Assembly (NCBI GenBank): GCA_020050685.1
Contig: JAGVKG010000044.1
Location: forward strand, 1-64,000
DNA length: 64,000 nt
Direction: 5' to 3'
Origin: Candidatus Obscuribacterales bacterium
GTDB lineage: Bacteria > Cyanobacteriota > Vampirovibrionia > Obscuribacterales > Obscuribacteraceae
The position numbers were made by a program, and so were the translations under genes. This document shows, one piece after another, positions 1 through 29,597 of the stretch (positions are counted from its first letter, which is position 1; every line of letters starts with the position of its first letter). The notes under the pieces are model-generated. The model saw only the letters and a list, made by a program, of their open reading frames with translations, was not told the DNA's origin and searched no databases.

Positions 1-7
1 CTCCGTC

Positions 8-26
8 GCTGATGCTAAGCATCAGC
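8..26. repeat. Perfect 9-bp inverted repeat in GC-rich spacer
   Basis: GCTGATGCT, one base, then AGCATCAGC form a perfect hairpin. It lies in a GC-rich stretch (about 1-115) with repeated CTCC, CGC and GCG words, unlike the surrounding sequence. It follows the 3' end of the minus-strand glutamate dehydrogenase gene. It could be a terminator without a T-run or part of a REP-like element. No ORF is supported here. Confidence 0.5.
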
Positions 27-141
27 TCCTCCGCGCGTTAAGACGCTTCACTCCGCAACGCTCCTCGCGTCGCTGCGCTTCGCTGTAGCTCGTGGGATGT
101 CCCCTACGCGCGTCCATATGCGAGGCACACTTTTATATACA

Positions 142-1446
142 TTAGGGATATAGACCGCGGACTCGTCGGGCTTCGAGTACGCGCTCGATAGCGATGCTCA
201 TGGAGGCAGTACGTAAGGTCATCTTCTTTTCGTCAGCAACGTGAAACACGCGATCACAGGTTCTGCCTACTAGTTTTTCCAAGCGAGTGTAGACTTCATC
301 CTCTGTCCAGAAGAGGCGCATAATGCCTTGTACCCATTCAAAATAACCGGCTGTCACTCCTGCTGCATTAGCCAGAATATCTGGAAACACGACTACACCC
401 TTGTCATCAAGAATATCATCGGCTTCTGGTGTCGTCGGACCATTTGCACCTTCAACAATAATTTTACATTTCAACTTGTCAGCGTTGCTGGCAAGAATTT
501 GATCAGGCACCGCGCATGGTGCCAAGATATCGCACTTAAGTTCTAACAACTCATCGCTAGTTACCGATTGTGCTTCCGGATAATTGACTAAGCCACCGGT
601 ACTATCCACATACTCTCGCAGCTTGGCGGGATCAAGACCTTTGGCGTTATAGAGAGCACCGGAAGAATCCGAAACACCAACTACAGTGAAGCCTTGTTCG
701 TGCAAACGCCTGGCAAGCACAGAACCCACTCTTCCCATTCCTTGAATGACAATCGTGGGAGACTTATCGGCAAGTTGTGTTCTAGCTACTGCTCTCTTAG
801 CACAATAGGCTACACCGAATCCGACTGTTTCCAACAAATTAAGAGAGCCGCCAATTGACTTGGGTTTACCAGTGACAATTGATGGCACGGTGTGCCCGAG
901 GTTGACGCTATATGTATCCATGATCCAGGCCATGGTTTGTTCATTGGTATGCAAGTCCGGTCCGGGAATATCTTCGTTCGGTCCAAGTAGTTCAATAATT
1001 TCTGATGTATAACGTCGCGTAATCCGCTCGAGTTCTTTTTTACTGTAGTCATTTGTATCAAGACGAATGCCACCATGGGCGCCACCAAACGGCAAATCCA
1101 TGAGTGCGCATTTCCAGGTCATAAGCATCGCCATGGCAGCCACTTCGCCCAGATCGAGATTGGGACGGAACCTGATTCCGCCCTTGCCTGGACCAAGTGA
1201 AATATCATGATGGACACGATAAGCAGTTAGCGTCTTGAGAGTTCCATCGTCCATACGCGAAGGCACCACAACACAAAGACAACGTTTGGGATTACGCAAC
1301 GGTCTAACCGCGTGCGGATCGGCGTTCATCAGAGTGGCAACTTTATCAAGGCGTCTTTGCGCCATCAAAAAGTCCGGTGTCTCCCATTCATTGGGCATAG
1401 TCATTCCCGGTGATTCAGGTTCATTCGGCTTTGCTTTAGTTGTCAT
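142..1446 (-). CDS. gdhA: Glu/Leu/Phe/Val dehydrogenase family protein with altered catalytic lysine
   Basis: The 434-residue protein has the usual length and layout of hexameric NAD(P)-dependent glutamate dehydrogenases: an N-terminal dimerisation/substrate domain, then a Rossmann domain (IQGMGRVGS near residue 234). The substrate-site residues align one position off the Clostridium symbiosum enzyme: K88 (GKGGIRF), K112 (TWKCAL) and D164 (PGPD). The fourth, the catalytic Lys of GGxKGG, is His124 (GGAHGG; codon CAT, complement of 1075-1077). The family reaction is reversible oxidative deamination of glutamate to 2-oxoglutarate and ammonia. Whether this protein catalyses it is open. It lies 33 bp downstream of ftcD on the same strand, so the two are probably co-transcribed; FTCD releases glutamate, the expected substrate. 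Confidence 0.9.
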   Translation of the reverse strand: MTTKAKPNEPESPGMTMPNEWETPDFLMAQRRLDKVATLMNADPHAVRPLRNPKRCLCVVVPSRMDDGTLKTLTAYRVHHDISLGPGKGGIRFRPNLDLGEVAAMAMLMTWKCALMDLPFGGAHGGIRLDTNDYSKKELERITRRYTSEIIELLGPNEDIPGPDLHTNEQTMAWIMDTYSVNLGHTVPSIVTGKPKSIGGSLNLLETVGFGVAYCAKRAVARTQLADKSPTIVIQGMGRVGSVLARRLHEQGFTVVGVSDSSGALYNAKGLDPAKLREYVDSTGGLVNYPEAQSVTSDELLELKCDILAPCAVPDQILASNADKLKCKIIVEGANGPTTPEADDILDDKGVVVFPDILANAAGVTAGYFEWVQGIMRLFWTEDEVYTRLEKLVGRTCDRVFHVADEKKMTLRTASMSIAIERVLEARRVRGLYP

Positions 1447-1479
1447 TTTCCTTGATACCCACTTCGGTCTCTAAAAACT

Positions 1480-3150
1480 CTAACTGCTAATTTTATCTAG
1501 AACCATTTCGTGAAGCGCATCTGCTCGCGTCTTCACGTGATCAAAAAGACTACCAGCCTCTTTGCTCATTTGCGTGCAATAATTCTCGTCCTCAATCGAA
1601 CCCAAATTAATCAGCACATTTAAATAAGCACCTTCAGCGCAAGCGTAGGCAGACGATGCTGCCACACCAGCATCGCTGGCAGAATTAGGATTGCCGGATT
1701 CAATGGCAAGCTGAGCCAGATCAAGCGCTTGATTGGCTTTGCCCAGAACGGCAAACGGCACATTCGTTGCATGCTTACTCGCTTCAAGAATAGCTGCATC
1801 ACGAGCTTGCGAGTCTGCGGCTGTATCTTTTGGTAGACGTCTGGCTTGCAATATCAAATTGAATGCTTTGGTATCAGCATCAACAGCTTCAAGAAATTCC
1901 GATTTCAATTTTTGCGCGCGAATGGAAAGATCATCCATCAACGGCTGCGAAGCAGCAAATTCCTTTTTGCCAAATGTAAGATTGCCAACCATGGAACTCA
2001 ATCCTGCCGAAAGCGCTCCCATCAATGCAGCAACACTGCCACCACCAGGAGCAGGAGACTCGGATGATACTTCGTCGACAAAATCGGCAACCGTGAAATT
2101 CTTCAAGAGCTTGGCGCTCTCGCTTACCCGGTATTCAATAACCTTTTGTTGCGGATCGAATTTAGAAACATCGCAAAGTCCAAGTGACTTGATAGCAATG
2201 TCAATCAGTTCTTTATCCGGCACGCCAGTTGGACGATTTTGCATTTTTAAATAATGCCTGCCCGCATCGAGCAGGGGTTCCAAAGGCACCATGCCGACAA
2301 TTTCTGAGCCGGTCACACGCAAGCCTAACTTTTCTGCTTGTTTACACGCCTCATCAAAGGCATGGTGCAAAGACGTGACTTTGTAATCAACAAGATTGAT
2401 AGAGACTTGCGCTTGGTCATATTCATCGATGTACCAACCAACAGCCTTGCAAGCTTTCAGGGTGCCCGGCACCTTCACCGACTTGCCGTCTTTGTCTTTC
2501 ACAATTTCGCCAGCATCGTTACGCTTGGCGCGGCCACCCTCGCGAATTGTCATCGCAATTTCGTTAGCCAACTTTTGAGACTTGGTATTCAGATTCACAT
2601 TGTAAGCAATCAGAAACGGGCGGGCACCAATGACGGTGGCACCAGATTCAGCGTTGAATTTTGTTGGCCCAAAATCAGGCTTAAAGCCATTCTTCATTCG
2701 CTCAGCCAAACCTTCATATTCACCTTGGCGAACATCGGCTAAATTGGCTCGCTCAGGCTTTTGCGCCGCTTCTGCATATAAATAAATTGGAATTCCCAGC
2801 TCGCTACCGACGCGCGCGCCCAATTGCTTGGCAAGCTCGGCACATTCTTCCATCGTGATGCCATTTACAGGCACAAACGGGCAAACGTCAGTTGCACCAA
2901 TTCGTGGATGCGCACCTTTGTGCACTTTCATGTCGATTAAACTTTGCGCTTTAGCTATCGCTTGAAAAGCCGCCTCGGACACCGCCTCCGGCTCACCGAC
3001 AAAAGTAATCACCGTGCGATTAGTGCTCTTGCCTGGATCAACATCCAGCAAGTTAACACCCTCCACAGAGGAAATCGCCTCTGCAATCGCATCAATTACC
3101 TTTTTGCTCTGCCCTTCGGAAAAATTGGGCACACATTCAACAAGTCGCAT
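1480..3150 (-). CDS. ftcD: Bifunctional glutamate formimidoyltransferase / formimidoyltetrahydrofolate cyclodeaminase
   Basis: This is a fusion of about 556 residues. The N-terminal formiminotransferase part (about 1-310) starts RLVECVPNFSEGQ and carries the GAHPRIGATDVCPF active-site segment with the catalytic His near residue 80. The C-terminal part (about 350-556) is the helical cyclodeaminase (APGGGSVAALMGALSAGL). The enzyme transfers the formimino group from N-formiminoglutamate to tetrahydrofolate, releases glutamate, then deaminates the product to 5,10-methenyl-THF, at the end of histidine degradation. The ATG at 3150 is chosen because AGGGGTGG lies just upstream; a GTG at 3165 would overlap that ribosome site. 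It is followed closely by gdhA. The fused form is common in animals and found in some bacteria. No other hut gene is in the window. Confidence 0.92.
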   Translation of the reverse strand: MRLVECVPNFSEGQSKKVIDAIAEAISSVEGVNLLDVDPGKSTNRTVITFVGEPEAVSEAAFQAIAKAQSLIDMKVHKGAHPRIGATDVCPFVPVNGITMEECAELAKQLGARVGSELGIPIYLYAEAAQKPERANLADVRQGEYEGLAERMKNGFKPDFGPTKFNAESGATVIGARPFLIAYNVNLNTKSQKLANEIAMTIREGGRAKRNDAGEIVKDKDGKSVKVPGTLKACKAVGWYIDEYDQAQVSINLVDYKVTSLHHAFDEACKQAEKLGLRVTGSEIVGMVPLEPLLDAGRHYLKMQNRPTGVPDKELIDIAIKSLGLCDVSKFDPQQKVIEYRVSESAKLLKNFTVADFVDEVSSESPAPGGGSVAALMGALSAGLSSMVGNLTFGKKEFAASQPLMDDLSIRAQKLKSEFLEAVDADTKAFNLILQARRLPKDTAADSQARDAAILEASKHATNVPFAVLGKANQALDLAQLAIESGNPNSASDAGVAASSAYACAEGAYLNVLINLGSIEDENYCTQMSKEAGSLFDHVKTRADALHEMVLDKISS

Positions 3151-3240
3151 TTTAATATTGACCACCCCTATTGAAGGTCAATCAATTTTACAGTACGTAA
3201 GTCTAGAGCAGCAAAGGTTATATCTCATGCACAAGCAAAC

Positions 3241-5505
3241 TTATCCCCCAGAAGAATCTTTGTTCAGTGCGCGCAAATGAAAACAGCCTCTGACGATTAG
3301 AAATACCAAGGGGACCACTCCACCTAGCACAAAAATCAAATCGCCAACGATTCTCAGCCAGGTAAATCTTTGAAAGTCTACTGAATGAATGAACTCATAA
3401 GAACGCGCATACCAGAAGTCATGACCATAGCTTGCCATCATTTGCACCACTCCGGCAGGAAAAATATTGAGAATTAGCATTAACAAGAGGCCAATGTTTA
3501 AGCTCCAGAATGATATGCCTGCGAGGCGATTGCTCCAAGCCTCAGGCTTGATCAAATAACGAGAACAAAATAGCACGGCTGCTACCGCCAAATTTCCATA
3601 TACGCCCATAAGCGCGGCATGCCCATGATTCGAAGTCAGATAAGTGGCATGCTCATAGTAACTAACGATTGGCAAATTGATTAAGAATCCAAATACACCC
3701 GCGCCAAGAAAGTTCCAAAATCCAACTGCAATTAAAAACATCATTGCCCAATAATGCGAGAAGTTCTTGATCGAGCCATCGACTTTCGCTATATAGACAA
3801 ACTTCCAAGCTTCAACAGTGAGCAAAGTAAGTGGTACCACTTCAAGAGCAGAGAACATTGCCCCAAGAGCCATGTTAATCGCCGGTTGTGCCGTCCAATA
3901 ATAGTGGTGCCCAATGCCAACAATGCCACTACCGAGGTAAAGGATGATATCCAAGTAAATGACGTTCAAAGCGGAACGCGCCGAAACCATGCCCAGACTA
4001 TGGAAGAAGTAGGCAACAATAATTGTTGTATACAACTCGAAAAAGCCCTCAACCCATAGATGTACAACCCACCATCGCCAAAAATCAGCAACAACAAAAT
4101 TTGTACCTGGGTGATACATCATGCCGAAGCTAAAGAAGATCGGAATTGCCACCACGCCATAAAGCAGCATGTGAGGCAAACTGCCTCGATCATTTGTCTG
4201 AGCAAGCAAGGGTGCAATACTGCGATAAATGATGAACGCCCATAGCACCATACCTATTGTTAAAAGCAATTGCCAAAGTCTGCCAAGTTCCAGGTATTCC
4301 CAGCCCTGGTGACCAATCCAGAACCAAAGATCGCTAATGGCAGAATTGCTAAATACTTGATTGATACCCAACCATTCTCCACCGATGCTTCCAACAGCGA
4401 CTATCAACACGGCTACAAATAAAAGCTTGACTAACCAATGTTGACCTTGTGGTTCATGCTGAGACAACATCGGTGCGATGAACATACCACCAGCGAGCCA
4501 GGCAGTCGCTATCCAAAAAATTGAAAGTTGCAAGTGCCAACTGCGCGTAATGCTATATGGCAAGATTGAACGTATATCGATGCCATAAAATCCTGCTGTC
4601 TCCACTATGTAGTGAGCAGTCACCACTCCAAAAGCTGTCTGGAATAGGAACAACAAGACCACTACCAAAAGGAATGGATAAACCGACCTCTGTGCTCGCG
4701 TGGGCAAAAAACTTTTTACGTTGTCGACCAGACCATCGTCTGCCTTATCCTTACTCCAGCCAAATGTCGGGTATGCACCAAGCAAAAACTGCGCCAATCC
4801 GATGCCACCAATTAAAGAAATCAAACTGAGAGCGCTCCAGAGAAAAACATGCAGGTGTGGTCGATTACCGACTAATTCTTCCGGTGGCCAATTATTGGTA
4901 AAGGTGTAATCTTTGCCCGGACGGTTCGTAGAACAAGCCCATGCCGCCCAGCTGAAGAACCTTACCAACTGAACAGCTTCTTGTTTGTCCTTTATATAAG
5001 AGGCCGGTAATGGCAAACGCTCACCACGGCTGAAAAGATCCTCGTAGTATGGCACCAATTGTTTATAAGCTTGTTCTTGCCGGCGGGTGAATACAAGGTC
5101 CCCCGAATATCGATCATAGCGATTGATTCTCGTATCATTGGCAAATGTCAGCGCTAACTTCTTTTTATCAGTAGCATCCAATTGATTGTAAGCGCGACCA
5201 TCCACGTCCCGGGACATGGCATTAAGAGCAATTTCGGCTTCGCGATGCAAATAGTCCGCCGTAAAATCCGGTCCGGTATAAGCACCATGACCAAATATGG
5301 AGCCTACGTCCATTAGACCGTACTTCTGGAAAACACTTTGTCCGGCAAGAATATCTTTACCGGTAAAAAGCTCCCTTCCATCTTCGCTAATTACACGGCT
5401 GGGAATTGGCGGCGCCTGGGTGCTCGCCTGAATCCCCATAAACATGAGAGTGGAAAAGCCAACTATAAGAACCGCGAGAACAGCAAGTTTCCATTTCCAA
5501 GACAT
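3241..5505 (-). CDS. norB: Quinol-dependent nitric oxide reductase (qNOR), single subunit
   Basis: This membrane haem-copper-oxidase superfamily protein of about 754 residues reduces NO to N2O with quinol electrons. It has one N-terminal membrane anchor, a periplasmic cytochrome-c-like region without haem c (about 35-210), then about 12 membrane helices. All metal ligands of the NOR family are visible: SWHLQ (low-spin haem b, near 328), VHLWVEGFFE (FeB His and Glu, near 486), GHHYYW (FeB His pair, near 537) and NHGHAALMG (haem b3 and haem b His, near 631). The length fits qNOR (about 750-800), not the shorter cNOR catalytic subunit. ATG 5505 has GAGGG upstream; TTG 5523 would include that site. 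It lies directly downstream of a di-haem cytochrome c. The role is NO detoxification or respiration. Confidence 0.93.
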   Translation of the reverse strand: MSWKWKLAVLAVLIVGFSTLMFMGIQASTQAPPIPSRVISEDGRELFTGKDILAGQSVFQKYGLMDVGSIFGHGAYTGPDFTADYLHREAEIALNAMSRDVDGRAYNQLDATDKKKLALTFANDTRINRYDRYSGDLVFTRRQEQAYKQLVPYYEDLFSRGERLPLPASYIKDKQEAVQLVRFFSWAAWACSTNRPGKDYTFTNNWPPEELVGNRPHLHVFLWSALSLISLIGGIGLAQFLLGAYPTFGWSKDKADDGLVDNVKSFLPTRAQRSVYPFLLVVVLLFLFQTAFGVVTAHYIVETAGFYGIDIRSILPYSITRSWHLQLSIFWIATAWLAGGMFIAPMLSQHEPQGQHWLVKLLFVAVLIVAVGSIGGEWLGINQVFSNSAISDLWFWIGHQGWEYLELGRLWQLLLTIGMVLWAFIIYRSIAPLLAQTNDRGSLPHMLLYGVVAIPIFFSFGMMYHPGTNFVVADFWRWWVVHLWVEGFFELYTTIIVAYFFHSLGMVSARSALNVIYLDIILYLGSGIVGIGHHYYWTAQPAINMALGAMFSALEVVPLTLLTVEAWKFVYIAKVDGSIKNFSHYWAMMFLIAVGFWNFLGAGVFGFLINLPIVSYYEHATYLTSNHGHAALMGVYGNLAVAAVLFCSRYLIKPEAWSNRLAGISFWSLNIGLLLMLILNIFPAGVVQMMASYGHDFWYARSYEFIHSVDFQRFTWLRIVGDLIFVLGGVVPLVFLIVRGCFHLRALNKDSSGG

Positions 5506-5528
5506 CACGATTTCATCCCTCAACGATT

Positions 5529-6368
5529 TTACGGTTTTGGTGCATTAGCTCGATTAGGAAGGGTTTCCAAAAAACTTGCTACTTTCTCAATTTCCTGATT
5601 CGTCAAATTGAACGTAGGCATCTCGGAAACCGGTGCACCTTTTCCTTGTTTCATAGAATGTACGCCAGCATCTGTAATATGCGCAACGATATATTCGTGA
5701 TCACGTCTACCTGCTATGCCATCAAGTTTTGGTCCAATCCATCCCCCAACATCGCCAATCGAGTGGCACGCCGCGCAACCAGATTCAGAATATAGTCTTG
5801 CACCCTTTTCACTAGCGGGTGATTTCTTCTTTGGCACAAAAGACAAATTTGCCGATCCGTCACCAGCCCTGAATCTCGTAGTATGAGGAGTGACAACAAA
5901 TCCACCTTCTGGTTCTGGCAGGGTCTCCAAATAAGCAACAATTTCATCGGCTCGCGGTAAGGATATGCGAACGTGAGGCATGAGCTCGCCTGATGAATCA
6001 ACAAGCTTGGCGAATTTCTCTTGAGCCTCGGTAGTGTTAGTTATCCGAGCAGAAAGATATTCGCGGCTACGCTTGCCTCCGATACCATCAAGCATTGGGC
6101 CAAGACACCCGCCGGCACCGCGGATAGAATGACAAGCTGCACAATTAAGTGACTTAAAAGCCATCGCCCCTTCTTTGCTGAGCTGGCTTTCCGGTTTCGG
6201 GCTGTAACCGGTCACCGGAATTTTGATTAGCTGGACCTTCTCTTCTTGGCTATCACCATTGGGAGTATCCATTGGATTTTGGGCATATGTTTGACTAAGA
6301 GAAAATCCGATGGTCCAGGTGAGTACGATCCCCACAAGCACTTGGCCGAGAAAACTAAGTCTTTTCAA
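5529..6368 (-). CDS. Exported di-haem cytochrome c
   Basis: This 279-residue protein has an N-terminal signal peptide (about 1-30, ending TYAQ) and two class I cytochrome c domains. The haem-binding motifs are CAACH at residues 76-80 and again near 198-202. Each is followed by GG and downstream Met residues that could be axial ligands (ELMPHVR; SEMPTFN). The two halves look like a duplication (KSLNCAACHSI versus SESGCAACHSI). It should carry electrons on the outer face of the membrane. Its stop lies about 23 bp before the qNOR start on the same strand, which suggests a shared transcript. A c-type partner is unexpected for a quinol-type NOR, so it may serve another oxidase or deliver electrons to this one. 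Confidence 0.88.
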   Translation of the reverse strand: MKRLSFLGQVLVGIVLTWTIGFSLSQTYAQNPMDTPNGDSQEEKVQLIKIPVTGYSPKPESQLSKEGAMAFKSLNCAACHSIRGAGGCLGPMLDGIGGKRSREYLSARITNTTEAQEKFAKLVDSSGELMPHVRISLPRADEIVAYLETLPEPEGGFVVTPHTTRFRAGDGSANLSFVPKKKSPASEKGARLYSESGCAACHSIGDVGGWIGPKLDGIAGRRDHEYIVAHITDAGVHSMKQGKGAPVSEMPTFNLTNQEIEKVASFLETLPNRANAPKP

Positions 6369-6451
6369 TTTCCATGCCTCGCATTCGTGTCGATATTCCT
6401 GCTTCTAAAGTTTAATAGCTAAGTTTGAATAGAGCAACCAGCACATTTCAG

Positions 6452-7354
6452 TCAACTAAGCAACGTCTTTATCGGCGAGAGAACAGCATTAACTTTATGC
6501 GGCGGCAAAATCAAAGCACAAGCCGAATTCAAGTTACGAACAAATTCGTTTACATCATCACCAGCACATTGCCTTTCTCCAGAGACAGCTGTATCAGTTG
6601 GCACGACCAAAAGTGTATCGTTGCTCACGCTCCAGGCCTGTCGCCAAGCATCATCAACTCTTTCGACTTGATCAATGACCACTTGCAATGAGCCTTCACG
6701 AAGTCTCTTCTTTTCCATTTTGGACAATATTTCTTCAATTTCAGATTTGCGGCCCGCATAAGAAATCTCGCAAAGAAGTCCGAGCGACCAAACCATGTCC
6801 AAGAAACTCGCGATTGTCTCCTCATCATATAAACGATTGCCTATCACCAAGCGTGCTTTTGTCCACGGGTTTGTACGATCCTGGACAATCAAAAGCGGGC
6901 AGGGGCACTCAGAGCTTAACAACTCGGCCAAGCTATAGCGAGCCAAATGTTTTCGGTCGGCATCATTTGTATATGGCGTGTTGCTCCGATGTCCAACAAC
7001 CACTAAATCGCTTTGCTTTGCCCTTTTGAAAATTTCTGAAACCGTGTTACCTTCATCGATCACAAATTCGGAATCAATTTCATAACCTTCAGCACGCTCG
7101 TCATATGCTTCCTTCAGAGTCTGAGCAATCGACTTGAGGGAATTGTCTATTGCATCATGTGCAGCAATGTATGGGCCGCTACCAATGATGCCCGGCAGAT
7201 CGGGACCAATCAGCTGCCACAAGGCTTGAATATCAATTACAGTTTGTGCAGTCACTTTCGCATCGAGCATTTGAGCCATTGACCAAGCAGCTTCCGCAGC
7301 AAATAGAGATTCACGCGATCCATTTACAGCCAATAAAATAGATTTTTTACTCAT
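6452..7354 (-). CDS. Universal stress protein, tandem UspA-like domains
   Basis: The 300-residue cytoplasmic protein begins KKSILLAVNGSRESLFAAEAAW, the usual first strand and helix of a Usp domain. The first domain ends with DLVVVGHRSN and CPCPLLIV-type strands near residue 155. A second, more diverged Usp-like half follows (about 160-300, with RLVIGNRLYDEE). Usp proteins bind ATP or AMP and are induced by stress or growth arrest. The start at 7354 is chosen because AGAGGA precedes it by about 7 bases; longer versions add a non-conserved leader. It is upstream of the cytochrome c and qNOR genes on the same strand with an 83-bp gap, so a common nitrosative or oxygen-limitation response is possible. 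No clear FNR or NsrR site was found. Confidence 0.82.
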   Translation of the reverse strand: MSKKSILLAVNGSRESLFAAEAAWSMAQMLDAKVTAQTVIDIQALWQLIGPDLPGIIGSGPYIAAHDAIDNSLKSIAQTLKEAYDERAEGYEIDSEFVIDEGNTVSEIFKRAKQSDLVVVGHRSNTPYTNDADRKHLARYSLAELLSSECPCPLLIVQDRTNPWTKARLVIGNRLYDEETIASFLDMVWSLGLLCEISYAGRKSEIEEILSKMEKKRLREGSLQVVIDQVERVDDAWRQAWSVSNDTLLVVPTDTAVSGERQCAGDDVNEFVRNLNSACALILPPHKVNAVLSPIKTLLS

Positions 7355-7586
7355 CGTCATGTCCTCTTTGAAATCAGTTACCTTGCTTCGGTCAGGCATC
7401 AAATCGTCCTCACCTTCCTATGGTTGCAAACTAACTGCATCCCTGCATCAGCCAAGGTAAGTATTAGGTCCCCTGGATCATTCCAAAATCATCCTTTCAG
7501 TTGATGGCAATAGGACGGTCCCTGGTTAAGCTGAAATCATTAGGCACACCAGTGATATTCCATCAAGGCCAAAATGCGCTTTTCGA

Positions 7587-8357
7587 TCAGGCTTTCGCTT
7601 TTAGCCCATAGCAGCACTTTAGTGTACCTGCAAGCATCAGGACCGACAAAAGCGCCCAACCCAAGCTCCATATAAGCGCCGGAATGCCTGTCATATCCTG
7701 CATGTTGGTAGCATCAGAAAATGAAGCAAACGGATTCAGTCCCGTGGATATCTGTACAAGATACCATACATCAGTGATTGCGTTGAGGGCGATTTGCACA
7801 GCGAGAAATAAAACAAGTAGATGCGCCAATGCATTAGGCAATTTCACGCCGGACCAAATCAATGCCGCAGCAATGATTACTCCCCAGACTACAGAACCAA
7901 TACCTTGAAAAATCTCGCCTTGATTGAAAACTGTGCCTGGCATCAAGAAAATCGACGCATAGGCAATCACAAGTCCCATCAAAATCAGAATTGGCCTGGC
8001 GGCCTGCTTGGCTCGGCCGATGGCTATAAGCAAACAACCAAAAAATGCACTACCAAGATAACCAGCCGGTGAATAGAAAAATGGATTGCCGCCCCGACAG
8101 AAGGTCAATCCGCCGTGTCCATGATTATCCGGAACTATTGTCAATCCTGACACCGTGCCACCAGTCGCCAGGCAAACCAAAGCATGACCAAGTTCGTGAA
8201 CACAAGTCACCAATATTTTTATTGGTGAGAGGATCCAGCTGACATAAGGCATATCCCAACAAATCAAAGAAAATACCGTCAATCCAACTAACGTCCAGAG
8301 AGTCGACGGATTGGCCGGCTTTCCCTGATTCGTTGCCTTGATCGAATGAAGATCCAT
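7587..8357 (-). CDS. M50B-like membrane metallopeptidase
   Basis: This integral membrane protein of about 256 residues has 6-7 hydrophobic segments. The HELGHALVCLATGG segment (about residues 50-65) carries the HExxH zinc motif. It is followed by GGLTFCRGG and SPAGYLGSAFFG, the pattern of the M50B-like peptidase family (PF13398). Substrate and role are unknown; relatives of site-2 proteases cut inside membranes, but this subfamily is poorly studied. The start at 8357 (MDLHSIK) places a short cytoplasmic N-terminus before the first helix. An upstream ATG at 8423 would add 22 residues, and neither start has a strong ribosome site. The gene diverges from the methyltransferase gene at 8475. Confidence 0.78.
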   Translation of the reverse strand: MDLHSIKATNQGKPANPSTLWTLVGLTVFSLICWDMPYVSWILSPIKILVTCVHELGHALVCLATGGTVSGLTIVPDNHGHGGLTFCRGGNPFFYSPAGYLGSAFFGCLLIAIGRAKQAARPILILMGLVIAYASIFLMPGTVFNQGEIFQGIGSVVWGVIIAAALIWSGVKLPNALAHLLVLFLAVQIALNAITDVWYLVQISTGLNPFASFSDATNMQDMTGIPALIWSLGWALLSVLMLAGTLKCCYGLKAKA

Positions 8358-8474
8358 AGTTGCTCTTTCGATTTGTGTCTTAGCTATCGATACTCGTAGC
8401 CAACATAAGAAATTGTAGGACATCTTTTGTTTTATTTTGGGAAATGCATGTTAAATTGCTAGACAAAGCAGTTT

Positions 8475-9149
8475 TTGGTTGACAAGCCATTGTCGGGAGT
8501 GGAAATCTTGGAGAACGAACGCCAGGAGCATGATCAATATCAATGTTCCTATTTCGATGAACGCGTTGATTTTTTTGCCCAGCCAATTCCTGCGGCTATT
8601 GAAGATCGCACGAGCAAAATTGTCCGCTTGGCCAAATTAAATAGAAACAGTCGCGTCCTCGATGTTGGCACCGGCTGCGGTGTGTTAATCAATCACTTTA
8701 TCGCCTGCGGGGCGCAAGAAGAAAATGTTTTTGGAGTCGATCTCAGTGCCAAGATGTTAGAGCAAGCGCGCTTACGCTTTCCCAAAGCGCATTTTTGGCA
8801 AGGCGATATTTTGGATTTTCAGGTAAGTAACAAATCGAATGAACACGAATCCAATCAGAATAAATTTGATGCGATTTTTTTCAACGCCTGCTTCGGCAAT
8901 ATTTTCAATCAGGAAAAGGCGATTGAACAATCCAGTCAATTGCTAAATCCACTGGGCAAAATAATCATTAGCCATCCGATGGGTGCAAAGTTCGTTGTTG
9001 CCCTTCACAACCAAGAGCCTGAGCTTGTCCCCCACCTTTTGCCGGATAGTAAAACCTTGGACAGTTGGTGTGACAAATTCCATCTCAAGCTGGCAAATTT
9101 CGTTGACGAGCCACAGCTTTATGCGGCCATGCTCGTATCAGCGAGCTAA
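8475..9149 (+). CDS. Class I SAM-dependent methyltransferase
   Basis: The protein has about 224 residues and a Rossmann-like fold. SAM motif I is VLDVGTGCGVL (about residues 61-71), motif II contains VFGVDLSAKML, and the post-motif QGDILDF is followed by the acidic strand DAIFFNACFGNIF. The acceptor substrate is unknown. The start is uncertain: TTG 8475 has no ribosome site, while TTG 8508 has GGGAG 8 bases upstream and would give a protein 11 residues shorter. The stop lies 76 bp from the convergent acyltransferase gene. Confidence 0.8.
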   Translation: MVDKPLSGVEILENERQEHDQYQCSYFDERVDFFAQPIPAAIEDRTSKIVRLAKLNRNSRVLDVGTGCGVLINHFIACGAQEENVFGVDLSAKMLEQARLRFPKAHFWQGDILDFQVSNKSNEHESNQNKFDAIFFNACFGNIFNQEKAIEQSSQLLNPLGKIIISHPMGAKFVVALHNQEPELVPHLLPDSKTLDSWCDKFHLKLANFVDEPQLYAAMLVSAS

Positions 9150-9225
9150 TAATTTCAAAGACCAACCGCTAGATAAGGCCCTGCGATTTGCGTCGAAAAT
9201 GGCAAGCCCGGTTTTTAGAACCTCG

Positions 9226-10470
9226 CTAATAGCGCATTCCAAACGGTCTCGAGGCCTCAGGAGCATAGTCGCCAACAAGCATCTCCTGCAATCGCCTAGT
9301 GAGCTCCAAGGTCACCTCACCAATTTGTGCCTTCTTATCAGTCTTGTACTTTTCATAGTACATATCAAGATCAATCGGAACACCAACATCAATCAAAACC
9401 AGCTCCGGGCCCTTTTTGCTTACCTTGCCAAATATCTCTTCTTCTAAAAGATTTATTGCCTCGACTAAATGTTCCTGTCCTCGATGATCAGATACACATA
9501 TACCAGACATCGCGCTCAGACTTATTACCCGACGCGTGTCTTTAGCGTAACCTTTTAGTATTTCCTTACGGTCTTGACGGCTTTTGTCGGACAATTTTGC
9601 TCGCTTGATTTGCTTTTTGCGTTCCACTATTTCGTTTTGCAAAACGTGACATCTGTGTATGATTGACGCATCTTCCGGCAAATCAATTTGCATACTCTCT
9701 GCCACATTTTTCAGCATGGCCTCCTGCAAAATACCTATACGATCGCCGAGAGACTGACTTGGCGGAGAAGAAACTTCCTGTTCTGCCTCCCACGTGCTGA
9801 GTACAGTTTGAAATACCATCATCAGACGCTGTTCCGGTGAGGAGCGTAAGCCGATTGAAATTTCAAGCTCGGACTCCAGCTTCTCCAAACACTTCATTAG
9901 GTTGGTGCTCAAGTCTTGAAGATGCGTATATTTCACAGCCACTGGCAGAATATAAACACTATCCTTCTTGCCTTTTTGTCGCAGCTCTTCCAAGGACCAC
10001 AGGCCAATTTTTGCTGCTCCTGGCTCGAGGGAAATCAGGCGATCGTTTTGATAGGAGATTTCACCTTCCGGGAAAATCACCAGTTTTTTTTGACCTTTGA
10101 GCAACAGATTCTTGGACATGGTTACGCTTTCCACATCATGCCCGCCGCGCAAAACGGAATAGCAGCCAATCCATTGCAACCAGATTCCATCGTAACCATG
10201 GTGCCGTTCAAAAAGTTCGTTAGCAACCATGACGTTAAAATCTTCGCCAACTAAGCAAGCCAGACCTAACAAGACATCAGCATCATCCTGAGCCGAGTGA
10301 TTAGGGCAAACGATCACACGCTTGCCTTTGAGAGCCCGATATCTTTTCAAACCGTCGCCGACAATTTTCAGAGAGATGCGCTGCTTGCGCAGCTTCATCG
10401 CCAGGGGATAAAGCACGCGCGTGAGAATAATCGCTAGTTTGGAATCTTTAGGGGGCTTGAATTTGTACAT
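9226..10470 (-). CDS. PlsC-like 1-acylglycerol-3-phosphate acyltransferase family protein
   Basis: The 414-residue protein has an N-terminal acyltransferase domain (about 1-215). It shows the HX4D motif in CPNHSAQDDAD near residue 57, a GCYSVLRGG segment, and FPEGEISYQND near 135, the PlsC motif III. The family transfers acyl chains to lysophospholipids at the membrane. The C-terminal half (about 215-414) is rich in charged helices (ERKKQIKRAKLSDKSRQDRK) and resembles nothing I recognise, so the protein is much longer than typical PlsC (about 240). Substrate may be a glycerolipid or another acyl acceptor. Confidence 0.8.
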   Translation of the reverse strand: MYKFKPPKDSKLAIILTRVLYPLAMKLRKQRISLKIVGDGLKRYRALKGKRVIVCPNHSAQDDADVLLGLACLVGEDFNVMVANELFERHHGYDGIWLQWIGCYSVLRGGHDVESVTMSKNLLLKGQKKLVIFPEGEISYQNDRLISLEPGAAKIGLWSLEELRQKGKKDSVYILPVAVKYTHLQDLSTNLMKCLEKLESELEISIGLRSSPEQRLMMVFQTVLSTWEAEQEVSSPPSQSLGDRIGILQEAMLKNVAESMQIDLPEDASIIHRCHVLQNEIVERKKQIKRAKLSDKSRQDRKEILKGYAKDTRRVISLSAMSGICVSDHRGQEHLVEAINLLEEEIFGKVSKKGPELVLIDVGVPIDLDMYYEKYKTDKKAQIGEVTLELTRRLQEMLVGDYAPEASRPFGMRY

Positions 10471-10568
10471 ATTTCAATTATGAACTAGTTTGTTTCCGGT
10501 AACCCTGCCATATAGTATCCATCGGTAAAAACACTTGCTGGCAAAACTGGTTGAGTCCACTCGTTGCC

Positions 10569-10602
10569 AAGAAGCCCACCAAGGACAATCGGGCGGCTTC
10601 TT
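10569..10602. terminator. Stem-loop downstream of tRNA-Ser
   Basis: AAGAAGCC and GGCTTCTT form an 8-bp inverted repeat around 18 bases. It lies about 40 bp beyond the 3' end of the minus-strand tRNA gene and about 100 bp upstream of the acyltransferase start. It may end the tRNA transcript; the T-run is short, so this is tentative. Confidence 0.35.
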
Positions 10603-10644
10603 AACAGAATCCGGCCCGCAATTTATCTTGACATTTAAAAAATT

Positions 10645-10734
10645 CGGAGAGGGAGAGATTCGAACTCTCGGTACAGCTTTTGACCGTACAACTTCTTAGC
10701 AGGAAGCCGCTTTCGACCACTCAGCCACCTCTCC
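10645..10734 (-). tRNA. trnS-GCU: tRNA-Ser, anticodon GCU
   Basis: The minus strand folds as a class II tRNA of 90 nt. Acceptor arms are GGAGAGG and CCTCTCC with discriminator G. The D arm is GGCTGAGTGGTCGAAAGC, the anticodon loop CTGCTAA gives anticodon GCU on a GCTTC/GAAGT stem, and there is a long variable arm. The T arm is GAGAG-TTCGAAT-CTCTC. CCA is not encoded. The anticodon and long variable arm identify serine (AGC/AGU codons). Confidence 0.95.
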
Positions 10735-10750
10735 CCGTTTGGAGAATCAA

Positions 10751-10756
10751 ACTATA
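10751..10756 (-). promoter_or_regulatory. Probable -10 box of tRNA-Ser
   Basis: On the minus strand TGATATAGT forms an extended -10 (TATAGT). It lies 16 bases before the tRNA 5' end at 10734, so transcription would start about 10 bases upstream of the mature tRNA. A GGGACA 15 bases further upstream could serve as a -35. Confidence 0.4.
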
Positions 10757-10900
10757 TCATAGCTCAAGTTTTGTCCCCAGATCGCATAAAATGGCAGTTC
10801 GCTTTTTGCCCAACCTCTTGACCAGCCCGTTCCCAGTCCTATTTATACCACCGAAAAGACTTTGCAAAAGCTCATCGCCGCCAGTTAAAGGAGAAGCAAT

Positions 10901-12424
10901 TTGAATTCCGCAAAATGGCTATCACTGATCATTACAATCAACGTATTGATGAATCTTGTCCTCCCGCAAGCCACACTGGCAGATGATGCGCCCTTTGCTG
11001 ACTTTGATTCTTATGTCGAGAAGATGATGAAGCAGTCGGACACGCCGGCAATGGCTGTGGCTGTGGTTAAGGACGACAAACTGGTTTATGCCAAAGGATT
11101 TGGCGTGTGCAAATTGGGTGAGGACAAGAAGTGCGATGAGCACACAATCTTTGCCATTGGTTCTTGTTCCAAAGCAGTGACTGCGGCAATTATCGGCATG
11201 CTGGTTGATGAAAAGAAAATGCAATGGGATGGGCATTTGACCGAATACCTCAAAGGTTTTCAATTATTTGATCCGTATGTGACGCGCGAAGTGACTATTC
11301 GTGATGCTCTGTGCCATCGCACTGGACTGCCTGAAATGGAAATGCTCTGGTATGCCTCGCCACTCGCGCCTAAAGAAATTCTTGAGCGCATGCGCTACCA
11401 AAAGCCGGCGTCAAGCTTTCGCTCAAAGTGGCAATACAACAATGGCATGTACCTTGCTGCGGGTGAAAGTGCTGCTGCGGTCAGCGGAAAGAGCTGGCAA
11501 GAATTGGTCAAAGAAAGGATCTTTGTGCCACTGCACATGAGTGAATCAAACACGAGCATTACTCAATTGACTGGGCTGACCAACGTGGCCATGCCGCATA
11601 GCAAAATCAATAACGTTGTAAAATCCGTACCTTATAGATCAATTGATCCTTGCGCACCGGCCGGAGCAATCAACTCCAATGTTGGCGACATGTCGCAATG
11701 GATACGCTTGCTTTTGAGCAATGGGAAATTTGAGGGCAAACAGCTAATTTCTGCAGAATCTTTAAAAGAGACACACACACCGCAAATGGTCACGCATGTG
11801 CCTGGCAAATTTGCCCAAAAATATCCGGAGATTGCTCAAGGCGCAAGCTACGGTCTTGGTTGGGCATGCAACAACTATCATGGGCACGAAATTGCTTGGC
11901 ACGGTGGTGGCATCGACGGCATGCGCTCTTATGTTTGCATTGTCCCGGATATGCATTTAGGCATGGTCTTTCTAACAAATAGTGATGCCTGCGGTCACAG
12001 TCTTTCTGCCGGACTTTCTTTCCGAATCATCGACTCATATATGAAACAACCATTGCAAGATTGGTGCCAACGCATGCTCGATGCTTATAACGCAGATCAA
12101 GCCGAAGGCAAAAAGAAAGAAGCAGAACTAGCAGCCAAGCGCGTGCCAAACACACATCCTTCGCTTGCTGTGGAAAAATATGCCGGCAAATATTCTGATA
12201 CCGAATATGGTGACATCAATATTGCTAAGAAAGATGGCAAACTGCGGATTGACTATGGGCCGGAAAGACAAGGAACGCTCGAACACTGGAACTACGACAC
12301 TTATCAAATTGTCTGGGACGATCCAATGATCGACAAGTGCCTTGCCGGTTTTCAACTCAATCAAAACGGCGAAGCAGCGCTCGTAGAAATTTCCGATCTC
12401 GCCATTTTCAATCGCAAAAAATGA
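10901..12424 (+). CDS. Secreted serine hydrolase, class C beta-lactamase family
   Basis: The 507-residue protein has a signal peptide (about 1-27, ending ATLA). The fold belongs to the AmpC/DD-peptidase/esterase family: SxxK is S88-C-S-K91 (IGSCSKAVTA), YxN is YNN near 178, and the third motif is HGGG near 333 (AWHGGGIDGM). A separate C-terminal domain (about 400-507, with VEKYAGKYSDTEYGD) looks like the DUF3471-type extension. Activity could be esterase, peptidase or beta-lactamase; sequence alone does not decide. Start TTG 10901 is supported by AAAGGAG 7 bases upstream. Confidence 0.87.
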   Translation: MNSAKWLSLIITINVLMNLVLPQATLADDAPFADFDSYVEKMMKQSDTPAMAVAVVKDDKLVYAKGFGVCKLGEDKKCDEHTIFAIGSCSKAVTAAIIGMLVDEKKMQWDGHLTEYLKGFQLFDPYVTREVTIRDALCHRTGLPEMEMLWYASPLAPKEILERMRYQKPASSFRSKWQYNNGMYLAAGESAAAVSGKSWQELVKERIFVPLHMSESNTSITQLTGLTNVAMPHSKINNVVKSVPYRSIDPCAPAGAINSNVGDMSQWIRLLLSNGKFEGKQLISAESLKETHTPQMVTHVPGKFAQKYPEIAQGASYGLGWACNNYHGHEIAWHGGGIDGMRSYVCIVPDMHLGMVFLTNSDACGHSLSAGLSFRIIDSYMKQPLQDWCQRMLDAYNADQAEGKKKEAELAAKRVPNTHPSLAVEKYAGKYSDTEYGDINIAKKDGKLRIDYGPERQGTLEHWNYDTYQIVWDDPMIDKCLAGFQLNQNGEAALVEISDLAIFNRKK

Positions 12425-12470
12425 TCCATTGTGTAAATTTTTCACACAGGTACATTAATTAAGGTCTCTA

Positions 12471-12710
12471 TTGTACGAGCGCTTGATTAAAATCGGAGCT
12501 TGGAGGCTCTGGATTATTGAGATTGAAAGGGAGAATATAAAAGTCGAACAATCGTCAGGCAATGAAAAAGCTGACAATGCCGCTATTGATGCCGTGAAAA
12601 AATCTACGCTTCCCAAGCCCGTCTATATTGCCGGAGCCAAGCAAGATCCAGTCGACTTTCTTATGACATTTGAATATAACGTCGGCAAAGACAAGAAAAA
12701 GTCAAAATAA
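12471..12710 (+). CDS. Small hypothetical protein
   Basis: The 79-residue basic protein is not recognised. It starts TTG, with AAGG about 7 bases upstream. It has a hydrophobic start (YERLIKIGAWRLWIIEIE), a charged middle and a Lys-rich tail (GKDKKKSK). It lies 46 bp after the serine hydrolase gene and ends 23 bp before a strong terminator, so it probably closes that transcript. Confidence 0.5.
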   Translation: MYERLIKIGAWRLWIIEIERENIKVEQSSGNEKADNAAIDAVKKSTLPKPVYIAGAKQDPVDFLMTFEYNVGKDKKKSK

Positions 12711-12733
12711 CTCACTAAATTTCCAAATAACGA

Positions 12734-12763
12734 GACCAGCAAAAAAACTTTGCTGGTCTTTTT
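12734..12763 (+). terminator. Rho-independent terminator
   Basis: GACCAGCAAA and TTTGCTGGTC form a perfect 10-bp stem around AAAAC, followed by five T. It ends the transcript of the serine hydrolase and the small gene before it. Confidence 0.92.
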
Positions 12764-12880
12764 GATTCTGCATAATCTTGCTATGAGCAAGCAATGTACA
12801 ATATTTGTTGACCAAGGAAACACTAATTGAAAGACAAGAGTCGACAGCGGGCGGAGAGTGGGTATCATTGTGAATCGCGA

Positions 12881-13186
12881 TTACACATCGCACTCGGAAC
12901 CACGTTCCATGTCAGGCGGCAGTCTTCGCGTAATCAAATAGCCATTCTTATCCATGACACCCTGATCTTGCAGGTTCTGGAATGCCTGTCGAACCCGCTC
13001 GCCTGCTCTCGCTTCTTCCTGTTCAAGCAAAGCTGCACGCTCTGAAGGATCTTCCAGATTGGTGTTAGACCACGCTAAGTTTTTCGAGCTCAATTGGTGC
13101 TGAAGTTCAAGCACGTCTTCGGGAGAGAGCTGCTCAACAAGTTTTAAGACTTGTTCGAGGCTAGACTTTTTCTTTGGTTGAGTCAT
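12881..13186 (-). CDS. Small helical protein, function unknown
   Basis: The 101-residue protein is predicted mostly helical: a basic start (MTQPKKKSS), amphipathic Leu/Glu helices (EQVLKLVEQLSPEDVLELQHQL), then an Ala/Glu/Arg-rich helix, ending in MERGSECDV. GGAGGTG lies 4 bases before the ATG, a near-perfect ribosome site, which makes it a real gene. It is 105 bp downstream of vapC on the same strand. It could be a regulator or an antitoxin-like protein, but no family was recognised. Confidence 0.68.
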   Translation of the reverse strand: MTQPKKKSSLEQVLKLVEQLSPEDVLELQHQLSSKNLAWSNTNLEDPSERAALLEQEEARAGERVRQAFQNLQDQGVMDKNGYLITRRLPPDMERGSECDV

Positions 13187-13231
13187 ATTACACCTCCGAC
13201 ATCATAAGTTTAACCTATTGCAGGCTCATTT

Positions 13232-13273
13232 GTGCTAACGCCCACCCAGGAACCTACACTACTCAATTAGCAC
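13232..13273. repeat. Inverted repeat between vapC and the 101-aa gene
   Basis: GTGCTAA and TTAGCAC are perfect 7-bp arms 28 bases apart, in the 105-bp gap between vapC and the next minus-strand gene. They could be a weak hairpin or a protein site. Confidence 0.3.
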
Positions 13274-13291
13274 GCTGGATGATCGATCTAG

Positions 13292-13690
13292 CTAGGTCTT
13301 CAACAAAGTCATGCCGGCTTTGGCAGCCGTTTTGTCGAATGTCACCGTAATCTCACATCCAGCGGCTTCGGCAATTTGTTCGACCAAGTAGTCGCTGAAA
13401 TCGCCTTGCCCGCCCTCAAACAACCTAAGCGCTTTCCAGACAATCTCTGCGTCCTGCACAATCAACTGCTTGGTACTAAGGATTAGACTCAGCAATTTGA
13501 CCACATCATGCTTTGACGCTCCATAACAGGTTTCACTAACCCAAACCAATTCAGCGATAGTCACAAGTCCGATGAATCCAGGACGTTCTACCGAACATTC
13601 CTTTTCAATACACTTTGCTGCGCGAGGTGATTGAACTGAATCATCCTGCGCGATGTAACGCACAAGTACATTAGTATCAAGTCCAATCAC
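13292..13690 (-). CDS. vapC: VapC-like PIN-domain toxin ribonuclease
   Basis: The 132-residue PIN domain starts IGLDTNVLVRYIAQDD, with the first metal-binding Asp at residue 4. A central Glu lies in IAELVWV (about residue 47). The later acidic site is GDFSDYLVEQIA (about 95-100), with a final Asp in VTFDKTAAK. VapC toxins are Mg-dependent RNases that cut tRNA or rRNA loops. The ATG overlaps the vapB stop by 4 bases, the typical coupled antitoxin-toxin order. Confidence 0.9.
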   Translation of the reverse strand: MIGLDTNVLVRYIAQDDSVQSPRAAKCIEKECSVERPGFIGLVTIAELVWVSETCYGASKHDVVKLLSLILSTKQLIVQDAEIVWKALRLFEGGQGDFSDYLVEQIAEAAGCEITVTFDKTAAKAGMTLLKT

Positions 13691-13926
13691 TTGCCGGCCC
13701 CGCGACGTCTGATTGCCCCTCGCATCATTTCCGTAGACACTGGACGCGCTGGTTTTTTGAGCATGCCCTTTAATGAACTGACATCGTGCACCGCCGGCTT
13801 GATGGCAAACACGCCATCGGAAATTTCCACGAACTCAATTCTGTCGCCAGTATCAATTCCCAATCTCTGTCTTACAGAAAGAGGAATTGTAATCTGCCCT
13901 TTGCTCGTAACGCTCGCCGTTGCCAT
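13687..13926 (-). CDS. vapB: VapB-like AbrB/SpoVT-fold antitoxin
   Basis: The 79-residue protein has an N-terminal swapped-hairpin DNA-binding domain (ASVTSKGQITIPLSVRQRLG, then GDRIEFVEI) and a C-terminal tail that should wrap the toxin (VSSLKGMLKKP). It neutralises VapC and represses its own promoter. ATG 13926 has AAAGG 5 bases upstream. The upstream 19 codons of the longer frame read through the promoter and operator and are rejected. The stop overlaps the vapC start. Confidence 0.9.
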   Translation of the reverse strand: MATASVTSKGQITIPLSVRQRLGIDTGDRIEFVEISDGVFAIKPAVHDVSSLKGMLKKPARPVSTEMMRGAIRRRGAGK

Positions 13927-13950
13927 AGTCGCCTTTCCAATTGCATCTAT

Positions 13951-13983
13951 CCTTACTTTATAGTAAGGAAATCCAAATGTCAA
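13951..13983 (-). promoter_or_regulatory. vapBC promoter with overlapping palindromic operator
   Basis: On the minus strand TTGACA (13978-13983) is followed 15 bases later by TATAAA (13957-13962). The -10 lies inside the perfect palindrome CCTTACT-TTAT-AGTAAGG (13951-13968). This is the arrangement expected for VapB autorepression. The -35 almost touches the stop codon of the upstream DUF4143 gene. Confidence 0.7.
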
Positions 13984-13989
13984 GCAAAG

Positions 13990-15306
13990 CTAATTGGAAA
14001 TGGTTTTGTCGAGGAGGAATCTCCAGGCCGGCACTATGTTGATATTGCCACCAGCGACTTGCAGCACTTCTTCTTGATTGCGCGTAACGATGGTACCGGA
14101 ATTTATTTTCAGTTCCTCCATCGCTTCTCTAAGAGCCGCTACTTCTCGTTTGCGGGTATTGCTATCAAGCACAGATTCGCATACCTGAACAAGCATGCGT
14201 TCCTTATTCGCTGTTTGTATGATAAAGTCTACTTCCTTGCCTGATTTGCTCCGGTAGTAATAAATATTCGGAGTGACCCGCCTGAGGGCAAGAAAAATCA
14301 GATTCTCTAAAAGATGCCCAGAATTGATAAGAACTCCGGATGCTAGCGAGGTCACCATGGCATGGTCAATGCAGTAGATTCTTTTGGGGTTGGTATTTGT
14401 TCTAGCTATTGAGGCATCAAAAATTCTCACCGTGAACAAGAAATAGGCATCTTCAAACCATTCCAGGTATTGTGACACTGCCGATTTAGGAGTTTTGTAC
14501 CCAAGAGATTTTAGATATCCCGTAAGGCTATTAATCGAATACGTGGCAGCGGTGTTGTTGATCAGCCAATAAGCCAGATCGGTAATTGCTTTAGGATGAG
14601 ATACATCGTGTCTCTCGATCAGATCACGAAATAGTACTGCATTGAAATACTCCTGATGCGTTTTGATTCTTAAATGCTTCTTGAGTCTTAGGACTTCCGG
14701 AAATCCGCCCGTTTGCCAGTATTCAGCAAAAGCATTTTGGATCAAAAGCTTCTTCTTGCTGGACAAATTGCTGCCCACGACGATGTTCTTATAGACCAGA
14801 AATTCCAGGAAAGAAAATGGGAACATCTCCCAGGAAAGCGCTCTTCCCCGCATCTGAGTGGCTATTTCTTTGGATAACATTTGTGCCGACGAGCCGGTGA
14901 TGTACACCTCACACTTTTCCGTACGCAAAAGGCGATCAACAAAGGATTCCCAATTGGGGACGCACTGAATTTCATCGAAAAAACAGTAGATCTTTTCCGT
15001 GTTTTTCTTGTGTGGATAAATTGAATAGTACGCTTCCAGCACCTGTGCTAATCCATCGTGTTGCAAGCTGTGCAAGCGATCATCAAAGAAGTTAATATAC
15101 AGAATATTTTGGCGAGATACGCCTGAGTCAATGAGTTTTTGGATTGTTTGAAATAAAAAGGTAGATTTGCCGCTTCGGCGCACACCAATGCAAATGGTTG
15201 CCTTGCCGCGCACCGGTTCAATCTGCAAGCGGCGCACAATACCGATTTCAAGCTCCTGTTCTTGAAAATCCAGTATCAATGCTTTAAGGGTATCAATCAG
15301 TTCCAT
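13990..15306 (-). CDS. AAA-family ATPase with DUF4143 domain
   Basis: The 438-residue protein has an N-terminal AAA_14 ATPase domain with Walker A GVRRSGKST (about residue 42-50), a Walker B CFFDEIQCVPNWESF (about 108-122), and a sensor segment VYITGSSAQML. The C-terminal DUF4143 region (about 210-420) contains KSGKEVDFIIQT, which resembles a nuclease-like acidic strand (E-V-D-F). These proteins are widespread in bacteria and archaea, vary strain to strain, and have no established function. The gene lies 60 bp upstream of vapB on the same strand. Confidence 0.85.
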   Translation of the reverse strand: MELIDTLKALILDFQEQELEIGIVRRLQIEPVRGKATICIGVRRSGKSTFLFQTIQKLIDSGVSRQNILYINFFDDRLHSLQHDGLAQVLEAYYSIYPHKKNTEKIYCFFDEIQCVPNWESFVDRLLRTEKCEVYITGSSAQMLSKEIATQMRGRALSWEMFPFSFLEFLVYKNIVVGSNLSSKKKLLIQNAFAEYWQTGGFPEVLRLKKHLRIKTHQEYFNAVLFRDLIERHDVSHPKAITDLAYWLINNTAATYSINSLTGYLKSLGYKTPKSAVSQYLEWFEDAYFLFTVRIFDASIARTNTNPKRIYCIDHAMVTSLASGVLINSGHLLENLIFLALRRVTPNIYYYRSKSGKEVDFIIQTANKERMLVQVCESVLDSNTRKREVAALREAMEELKINSGTIVTRNQEEVLQVAGGNINIVPAWRFLLDKTISN

Positions 15307-15320
15307 ACAATCCGGTCTCC

Positions 15321-15358
15321 ATTCTTACCGATTTGTGCCCAAACTGGTAAGAATTATA
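15321..15358 (-). promoter_or_regulatory. DUF4143 gene promoter and 9-bp palindrome
   Basis: ATTCTTACC (15321-15329) and GGTAAGAAT (15346-15354) are perfect inverted arms around 16 bases. On the minus strand a TATAAT (15353-15358) overlaps the upstream arm, and the gene starts at 15306. This suggests a repressor site across the -10 and transcription start. A good -35 was not found. Confidence 0.5.
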
Positions 15359-15489
15359 ACCGATATACCAACAAACCGGAAATATTTTTTTCCAGTTTAA
15401 CTCCCATTCACTGTATTACCAGCCTAAATAAATCCTCAGGGAAAGCAAGGCTTAAGCGGCGAAGCTTGTTTCACAAAAAGAACTTGAGC

Positions 15490-18960: not shown

Positions 18961-19053
18961 AAATGTATAAACTCAAATATAAGATTGAACGCATATTACT
19001 GGAAAAGTCACCGCGCATGAGAAGAACTCAAGGTGTACGCCAGATGCTGAACC

Positions 19054-19059
19054 TATAAT
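19054..19059 (+). promoter_or_regulatory. -10 box close to glycosyltransferase start
   Basis: A perfect TATAAT ends 10 bases before the ATG at 19070. Transcription would begin within about 4 bases of the start codon, giving a leaderless or near-leaderless mRNA. No clear -35 was found. Confidence 0.4.
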
Positions 19060-19069
19060 TACCAGCACT

Positions 19070-20128: not shown

Positions 20129-20226
20129 TTGGGTCCGGCAGTAAGCAAAATCTGGAAAGGCGCTTGGCAAAACAGCTAATTTCCGGTGCATAAACGCGGT
20201 AAGATAGTGCTAAATCCCCTTAGATT

Positions 20227-22398: not shown

Positions 22399-22429
22399 GA
22401 AAAATTACAAGTGTGATTTTGAACTGCGC

Positions 22430-22978: not shown

Positions 22979-23090
22979 GCCTTGACCAGCCCTCGTCCAG
23001 TGGGGATAAGCCCACGCCAGACCAATTATTCCGTAGCTGTCCATGGTAACATGAGCAAATATCTTTAGTTATTCAATTATGTGAGTATTT

Positions 23091-23876: not shown

Positions 23877-23878
23877 TC

Positions 23879-29569: not shown

Positions 29570-29597
29570 GGCTGAAGGCGCAGGGGAAACTGAACAA

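Follow-up and report, generated by a model that had tools for sequence, protein, structure and literature searches.

The window analysed here is a stretch of 64,000 nt from a Candidatus Obscuribacterales genome (4.2 Mb, 70 contigs, 98.7% complete), probably that of a cyanobacterial relative without photosynthesis. Close to its start, three genes follow one another on the minus strand: a universal stress protein (USP) gene, a gene for a di-haem class I cytochrome c and a gene for a quinol-type NO reductase (qNOR), with gaps of 83 bp and 23 bp, respectively (Table 1). A first-pass annotation of this DNA had placed an exported di-haem cytochrome c gene about 23 bp upstream of the NOR and a USP gene before both; the open reading frames (ORFs), their strand and the spacer are as it described. 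The likely start of the NOR is the ATG at 5505, which has a GAGGG, likely its ribosome-binding site, 11 nt upstream. As judged from sequence, the USP, cytochrome and NOR genes probably form one co-directional transcription unit. Neither a clear promoter (6 promoter-like sites against 8.6 expected) nor a clear terminator (8 terminator-like sites against 5.3 expected, sd 2.4) marks it. The tetranucleotide make-up of positions 20001-40000 of the window is unlike that of both flanks (correlation 0.82 and 0.89, flank against flank 0.93).

Table 1. Genes, motifs and residues of the qNOR locus, and a NirK-like gene elsewhere in the same genome. gsNOR, numbering of the Geobacillus stearothermophilus enzyme.
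Feature	Position	Strand	Remarks
Glutamate dehydrogenase	142-1446	(-)	after formiminotransferase-cyclodeaminase
Formiminotransferase-cyclodeaminase	1480-3165	(-)	after qNOR
qNOR (norB/norZ type)	3241..5505	(-)	754 aa from ATG 5505; ORF open to TTG 5523
Quinol-site Asp722 (gsNOR D746)	3340..3342	(-)	by alignment
Active-site Glu555 (gsNOR E581)	3841..3843	(-)	by alignment
FeB ligands His533-His534 (gsNOR H559, H560)	3904..3909	(-)	by alignment
FeB ligand His482 and Glu486 (gsNOR H508, E512), HLWVE motif	4048..4062	(-)	by alignment
Quinol-site His298 and Glu302 (gsNOR H328, E332)	4600..4614	(-)	by alignment
Spacer, cytochrome stop to NOR ATG	5506..5528	(-)	23 bp; contains GAGGG 5517-5521
Di-haem class I cytochrome c	5529..6368	(-)	279 aa, TTG start; Sec-type signal by eye
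Candidate sixth ligand Met250 (haem site 2)	5619-5621	(-)	Met in 62/77 family members
Haem c site 2, CAACH, residues 198-202	5763..5777	(-)	both Cys and His in 77/77 family members
Candidate sixth ligand Met130 (haem site 1)	5979-5981	(-)	Met in 57/77 family members
Haem c site 1, CAACH, residues 76-80	6129..6143	(-)	both Cys and His in 77/77 family members
USP ORF	6452..7402	(-)	Pfam Usp, 1e-9
Two-domain multicopper oxidase, NirK-like	L266:10804-11844		overlaps USP ORF by 4 bp

The window NOR matched solved NO reductases over nearly its full length, namely 3ayf (E 3.4e-182), 28pn (E 2.1e-172) and 6fwf (E 2.9e-156), and the 3ayf alignment spans residues 16-752 of 760. Pfam found NorB_cytochrome_c-like (PF22085) and COX1 (PF00115). 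No CxxCH occurs in the first 280 residues of any of the 122 rows of our qNOR/Nod set, which includes the window NOR and a few duplicate or cut rows. The full qNOR architecture without a haem c of its own, as noted at first pass, is thus confirmed. Residues were numbered by alignment to 3ayf (gsNOR), in which H508 and E512 fall within HLWVE and the GHQG histidine is 425; all eight residues tested (H328, E332, H508, E512, H559, H560, E581 and D746) are present. Like 3AYF of Geobacillus stearothermophilus and other solved NO reductases, the window enzyme is a single chain with a haem-less cytochrome-c-like soluble domain; it shares with 3AYF the three FeB histidines, E512/E581 and H328/E332/D746, and differs in its gene neighbours only. 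Among the 29 window-type rows longer than 690 aa, 28 have an intact quinol site, and the remaining one is cut off by a contig end before D746. In another genome (G007), a qNOR at L091:525-2816 has Ala in the GHQG histidine column, which may be an alignment slip. From its residues, the window NOR is predicted to be an ordinary quinol-oxidising NO reductase, which would convert NO to N2O.

Two other NOR types were considered and rejected. As in cNOR (NorBC), a c-type cytochrome gene adjoins the NOR gene, but NorC is a mono-haem membrane subunit, whereas in the window a long, quinol-type NOR stands beside a cytochrome with two CxxCH motifs and a Sec-type signal. For qCuANOR, a Pfam scan of the nine proteins of 142-12424 found no CuA subunit.

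Inspected by eye, the cytochrome sequence shows two CxxCH motifs and, at its N-terminus, a Sec-type signal; a lipobox cysteine is absent. Pfam gave two class I domains, with Cytochrom_C and Cytochrome_CBB3 the only matches. An alignment and tree of its family were built from the 77 members in the fetched loci that have at least two CxxCH, and a candidate Met ligand is common in each domain (Table 1). Such ligands in both domains are the pattern of electron carriers, and the protein is probably a soluble periplasmic di-haem electron carrier with His/Met ligation. Its domain 2 shows a weak likeness to NorC (3o0r_C, E 5.8e-4), other class I cytochromes being about as good. SoxX was tried and rejected: TIGR04485 scored 67.6 bits, above its cut-off of 61, yet this score comes from two segments of a protein with two haem motifs, where SoxX is mono-haem, and there was no SoxA partner among the nine proteins scanned around the gene. 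The cytochrome's family is multi-copy in its lineage.

The pairing was followed in relatives at 30 places with a window-type qNOR (at least 70% identity), found in 28 of 50 family genomes. At four of these a related di-haem cytochrome gene lies within 450 bp and is co-directional: the window, G025, G022 and G067. G025 has the order of the window, with the cytochrome upstream and 22 bp between the two ORFs. In G022 and G067, which belong to one genus, the cytochrome is downstream of the qNOR, and a 78-aa ORF lies between them in G067. G069 has a mono-haem relative of the cytochrome near the qNOR, beyond a USP gene. The other 26 places have no cytochrome neighbour; some pairs may be hidden, since at 8 of these 26 the contig ends less than 1.5 kb away on one side. 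None of 24 other NOR- or Nod-type places was paired with a related di-haem cytochrome. The adjacency test covered 78 of 84 cytochrome rows; the six weakest, whose contigs carry no listed NOR of the genome concerned, were omitted.

Uniform random placement with a 1.5-kb reach expects 0.036 pairs for 30 places, against the four seen. Because the window was chosen for its pairing, it was left out of the fair estimate; with G022 and G067 counted once, the probability of two or more pairs at the same expectation is 6e-4, a value that is optimistic because the model ignores functional clustering. The pairing is commoner than random placement predicts, given the full domain matches and its recurrence at 3 of 29 other orthologous places, but this does not imply that the cytochrome feeds the NOR. 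A comparison of qNOR neighbourhoods had been proposed at first pass, and it shows the two genes together in three genomes besides that of the window; the case that would have spoken against a link, separate loci in every relative, is therefore not what is seen.

On the 77-row tree the paired cytochromes are split among three separate clades, and the paired NORs take three changes on a 32-row tree. For the cytochrome tree, changes were counted solely against labelled rows; 48 rows belonged to no group. The paired label showed no strong clustering, with shuffles as low in 69 of 500 (cytochrome tree) and 41 of 500 (NOR tree). The pairing may have arisen repeatedly, or once with two later losses. 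No alignment column holds a residue private to the four paired NORs, in a weak test where random sets of four average 0.06 such columns. Furthermore, in G008, which has a qNOR, the cytochrome family gave no match at E<=0.001, and three same-order f2 genomes all have a qNOR, with no cytochrome-family match in two and a single weak one in the third.

The surroundings of the qNOR in relatives are those of an NO response. Of 33 qNOR loci, several truncated by contig ends, 15 have an Rrf2-family regulator within 5 kb, 13 a ScdA/hemerythrin-type protein and 9 a globin, labelled with profiles seeded with by-eye sequences (one Rrf2, one ScdA-type protein and one globin were confirmed by Pfam). None of the three was found at the window locus within 3.2 kb and 5 kb on its two sides. 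The genome itself gave no Rrf2 match, compared with 13 of 14 control genomes that gave one, so the window locus is not shown to belong to the regulon seen in relatives. A palindrome, ATCTTGATCAAGAT, is found in eight relative loci (L070, L073, L074, L106, L110, L111, L112 and L113) close to the qNOR/globin module, with 0-1 mismatch, and two more loci have it elsewhere; it is a possible Rrf2-type operator. It is absent from the window locus, where the nearest match (8527-8540) has three mismatches; the whole window holds six such matches against 3.7 expected. Among 80 regions upstream of qNOR operons, consensus sites with at most one substitution numbered two for FNR, one for CRP and none for NsrR; a six-base motif gave 139 matches there and was uninformative.

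USP genes lie within two genes of 26 of the 77 two-haem cytochromes and within 3 kb of 33, leaving 51 without a USP within two genes, while 15 of 394 other ORFs in qNOR loci have one that close. This tie belongs to USP-rich regions more than to the cytochrome gene, because 145 of 626 other ORFs inside the cytochrome loci also have a USP within two genes.

With moderate confidence, we read the NOR as a quinol-fed, NO-removing enzyme and the cytochrome as a co-expressed periplasmic carrier that is not its donor, the USP, cytochrome and NOR forming a low-oxygen/N-oxide stress cassette. Quinol would reduce the NOR through its intact quinol site, and the NOR would turn NO into N2O. The cytochrome most probably takes electrons from a b6-like cytochrome complex and passes them to a cbb3-looking haem-copper oxidase of its own genome or to a putative nitrite reductase. 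Contig C47 of this genome encodes a COX1-family oxidase subunit and a cytochrome b (COX1 and Cytochrome_B matches), of cbb3 type by eye, and nine ORFs of the genome have Cytochrome_CBB3 matches (11 matches). In Neisseria, a di-haem cytochrome c5 is described as needed for NirK (PMC3475470). Like the window protein, c5 is a di-haem carrier in an NO-handling organism; the likeness is by description only, and no NirK was confirmed in the window's genome.

That the cytochrome and the NOR have no functional link, and are neighbours through coincidence or a general grouping of respiratory and stress genes, appears unlikely. Most orthologous places are unpaired, USPs and cytochromes share USP-rich regions, which raises chance adjacency, and neither tree shows strong clustering of the paired label. 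Against this stand the excess of pairs over the random expectation, which holds for the two further lineages alone, and the common direction of all four pairs.

The first-pass annotation suggested that the cytochrome may give the NOR a second electron input or link it to another oxidase; in the former case the cytochrome would be a docking donor beside quinol. Dual quinol/cytochrome c input has a precedent in the qCuANOR/sNOR of Bacillus azotoformans, as described in PMC3475470, and the close co-directional spacing here and in G025, the three separate lineages and the weak NorC likeness of domain 2, no better than that to other class I cytochromes, are in keeping with it. However, the Bacillus enzyme has a CuA subunit of the kind missing among the nine scanned window neighbours, the window NOR keeps its quinol site and has no haem c, and the paired cytochromes are not one NOR-dedicated clade. 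A second input was set aside as the main reading because there is no residue signal and most orthologous places lack a cytochrome neighbour, a qNOR standing even in G008 where the cytochrome family was not matched; we regard it as improbable. A periplasmic protein that binds NO or senses NO or redox state, and is not a carrier, would suit the stress role of the USP and NOR neighbours, but it is very improbable in view of the common Met ligands and the purely Cytochrom_C and Cytochrome_CBB3 matches.

A second qNOR-like gene of the same genome lies on another contig, C26 (G000:C26:13730-16051; L088:8230-10554), and its product is 45% identical to that of the window gene. It has E332 replaced by Gly, H560 by Asn, E581 by Gln and D746 by Gly, keeps H328 and H508, and has Asn at the GHQG histidine (gsNOR 425). 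The signs of an NO dismutase (Nod) are described as Asn at the FeB histidine His560, Gln at a nearby Glu and loss of the quinol site (PMC3413370, PMC10286720). Like Nod, the C26 protein has the His560 and Glu581 replacements and has lost E332 and D746; it differs in keeping His328 and in its Asn at the GHQG histidine. Nod-type proteins keep H508 in the alignment columns (gsNOR numbering). By its residues, the C26 gene encodes a putative NO dismutase (2 NO -> N2 + O2), an enzyme type proposed to form oxygen from NO.

The Nod-type group in the family comprises six places by identity (45-46%), with residues read in four. Among named sequences, the C26 gene is matched best by JADZFV010000051.1 (a Candidatus Melainabacteria MAG), followed by a Candidatus Obscuribacterales MAG. 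The best 80 of 226 confirmed relative stretches include Planctomycetota, Bacteroidota, Rhodocyclales and a Muricauda MAG, and from these 80 the Asn and Gln signature was read in 78 of 78 rows from named-relative contigs. In a phylum sample of 386 genomes, only the genome studied here had a match at E<=1e-200. We found no paper on Nod in the Melainabacteria lineage, and the term 'nitric oxide dismutase' was absent among the papers listed by a wider search. On one contig of G032 (L083; G032:C51:9000-21521), a Nod-type gene and a window-type qNOR lie about 6.4 kb apart. In G015, a 577-aa multi-haem cytochrome with eight CxxCH (L089:5466-7199) lies upstream of the Nod-type gene.

C26 also carries narG and narH above their cut-offs, together with NarJ- and NarI-family proteins (narGHJI), and a di-haem cytochrome adjoins narG. 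Its N-oxide/stress island (L104, L088, L265 and L266) further includes NnrS, a ScdA-type protein, several USPs and HypF. In tetranucleotide make-up C26 agrees with the window's contig (correlation 0.92-0.97 with window positions 1-20000), a comparison in which family relatives also reach 0.86-0.91. No clear nitrite reductase was found in the genome by comparison with NirS-type and NirK profiles. The NirS matches were partial and weak, one passing the cut-off only together with its neighbours in a 6972-aa frame. The NirK candidate on C26, a two-domain multicopper oxidase, reached only 70.7 bits where the cut-off is 296.3, and it has HPQ at the position where its best solved relative has HCH. 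A cbb3-type oxidase and nitrate respiration are described for Obscuribacter (PMC4040986), and both qNOR and cNOR are reported from the related Sericytochromatia (PMC6349859).

A wider reading, which we hold only tentatively and think rather unlikely, is that this non-photosynthetic cyanobacterial lineage runs a dark oxygen-making denitrification with NarGHJI, a putative nitrite reductase and Nod. The qNOR would then handle NO overflow and detoxification, and the cytochrome would serve an oxidase that burns the oxygen made by Nod.

For the window itself, the lesson is caution against inferring electron flow from gene order, and the qNOR with its di-haem cytochrome c offers a small, testable case of recurrent pairing. 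The Nod-type gene beyond the window, on a contig with narGHJI, is the larger by-product of this work. If true, Nod-type genes together with nitrate reductase in an Obscuribacterales-type genome would represent a light-independent oxygen-forming pathway inside Cyanobacteriota.
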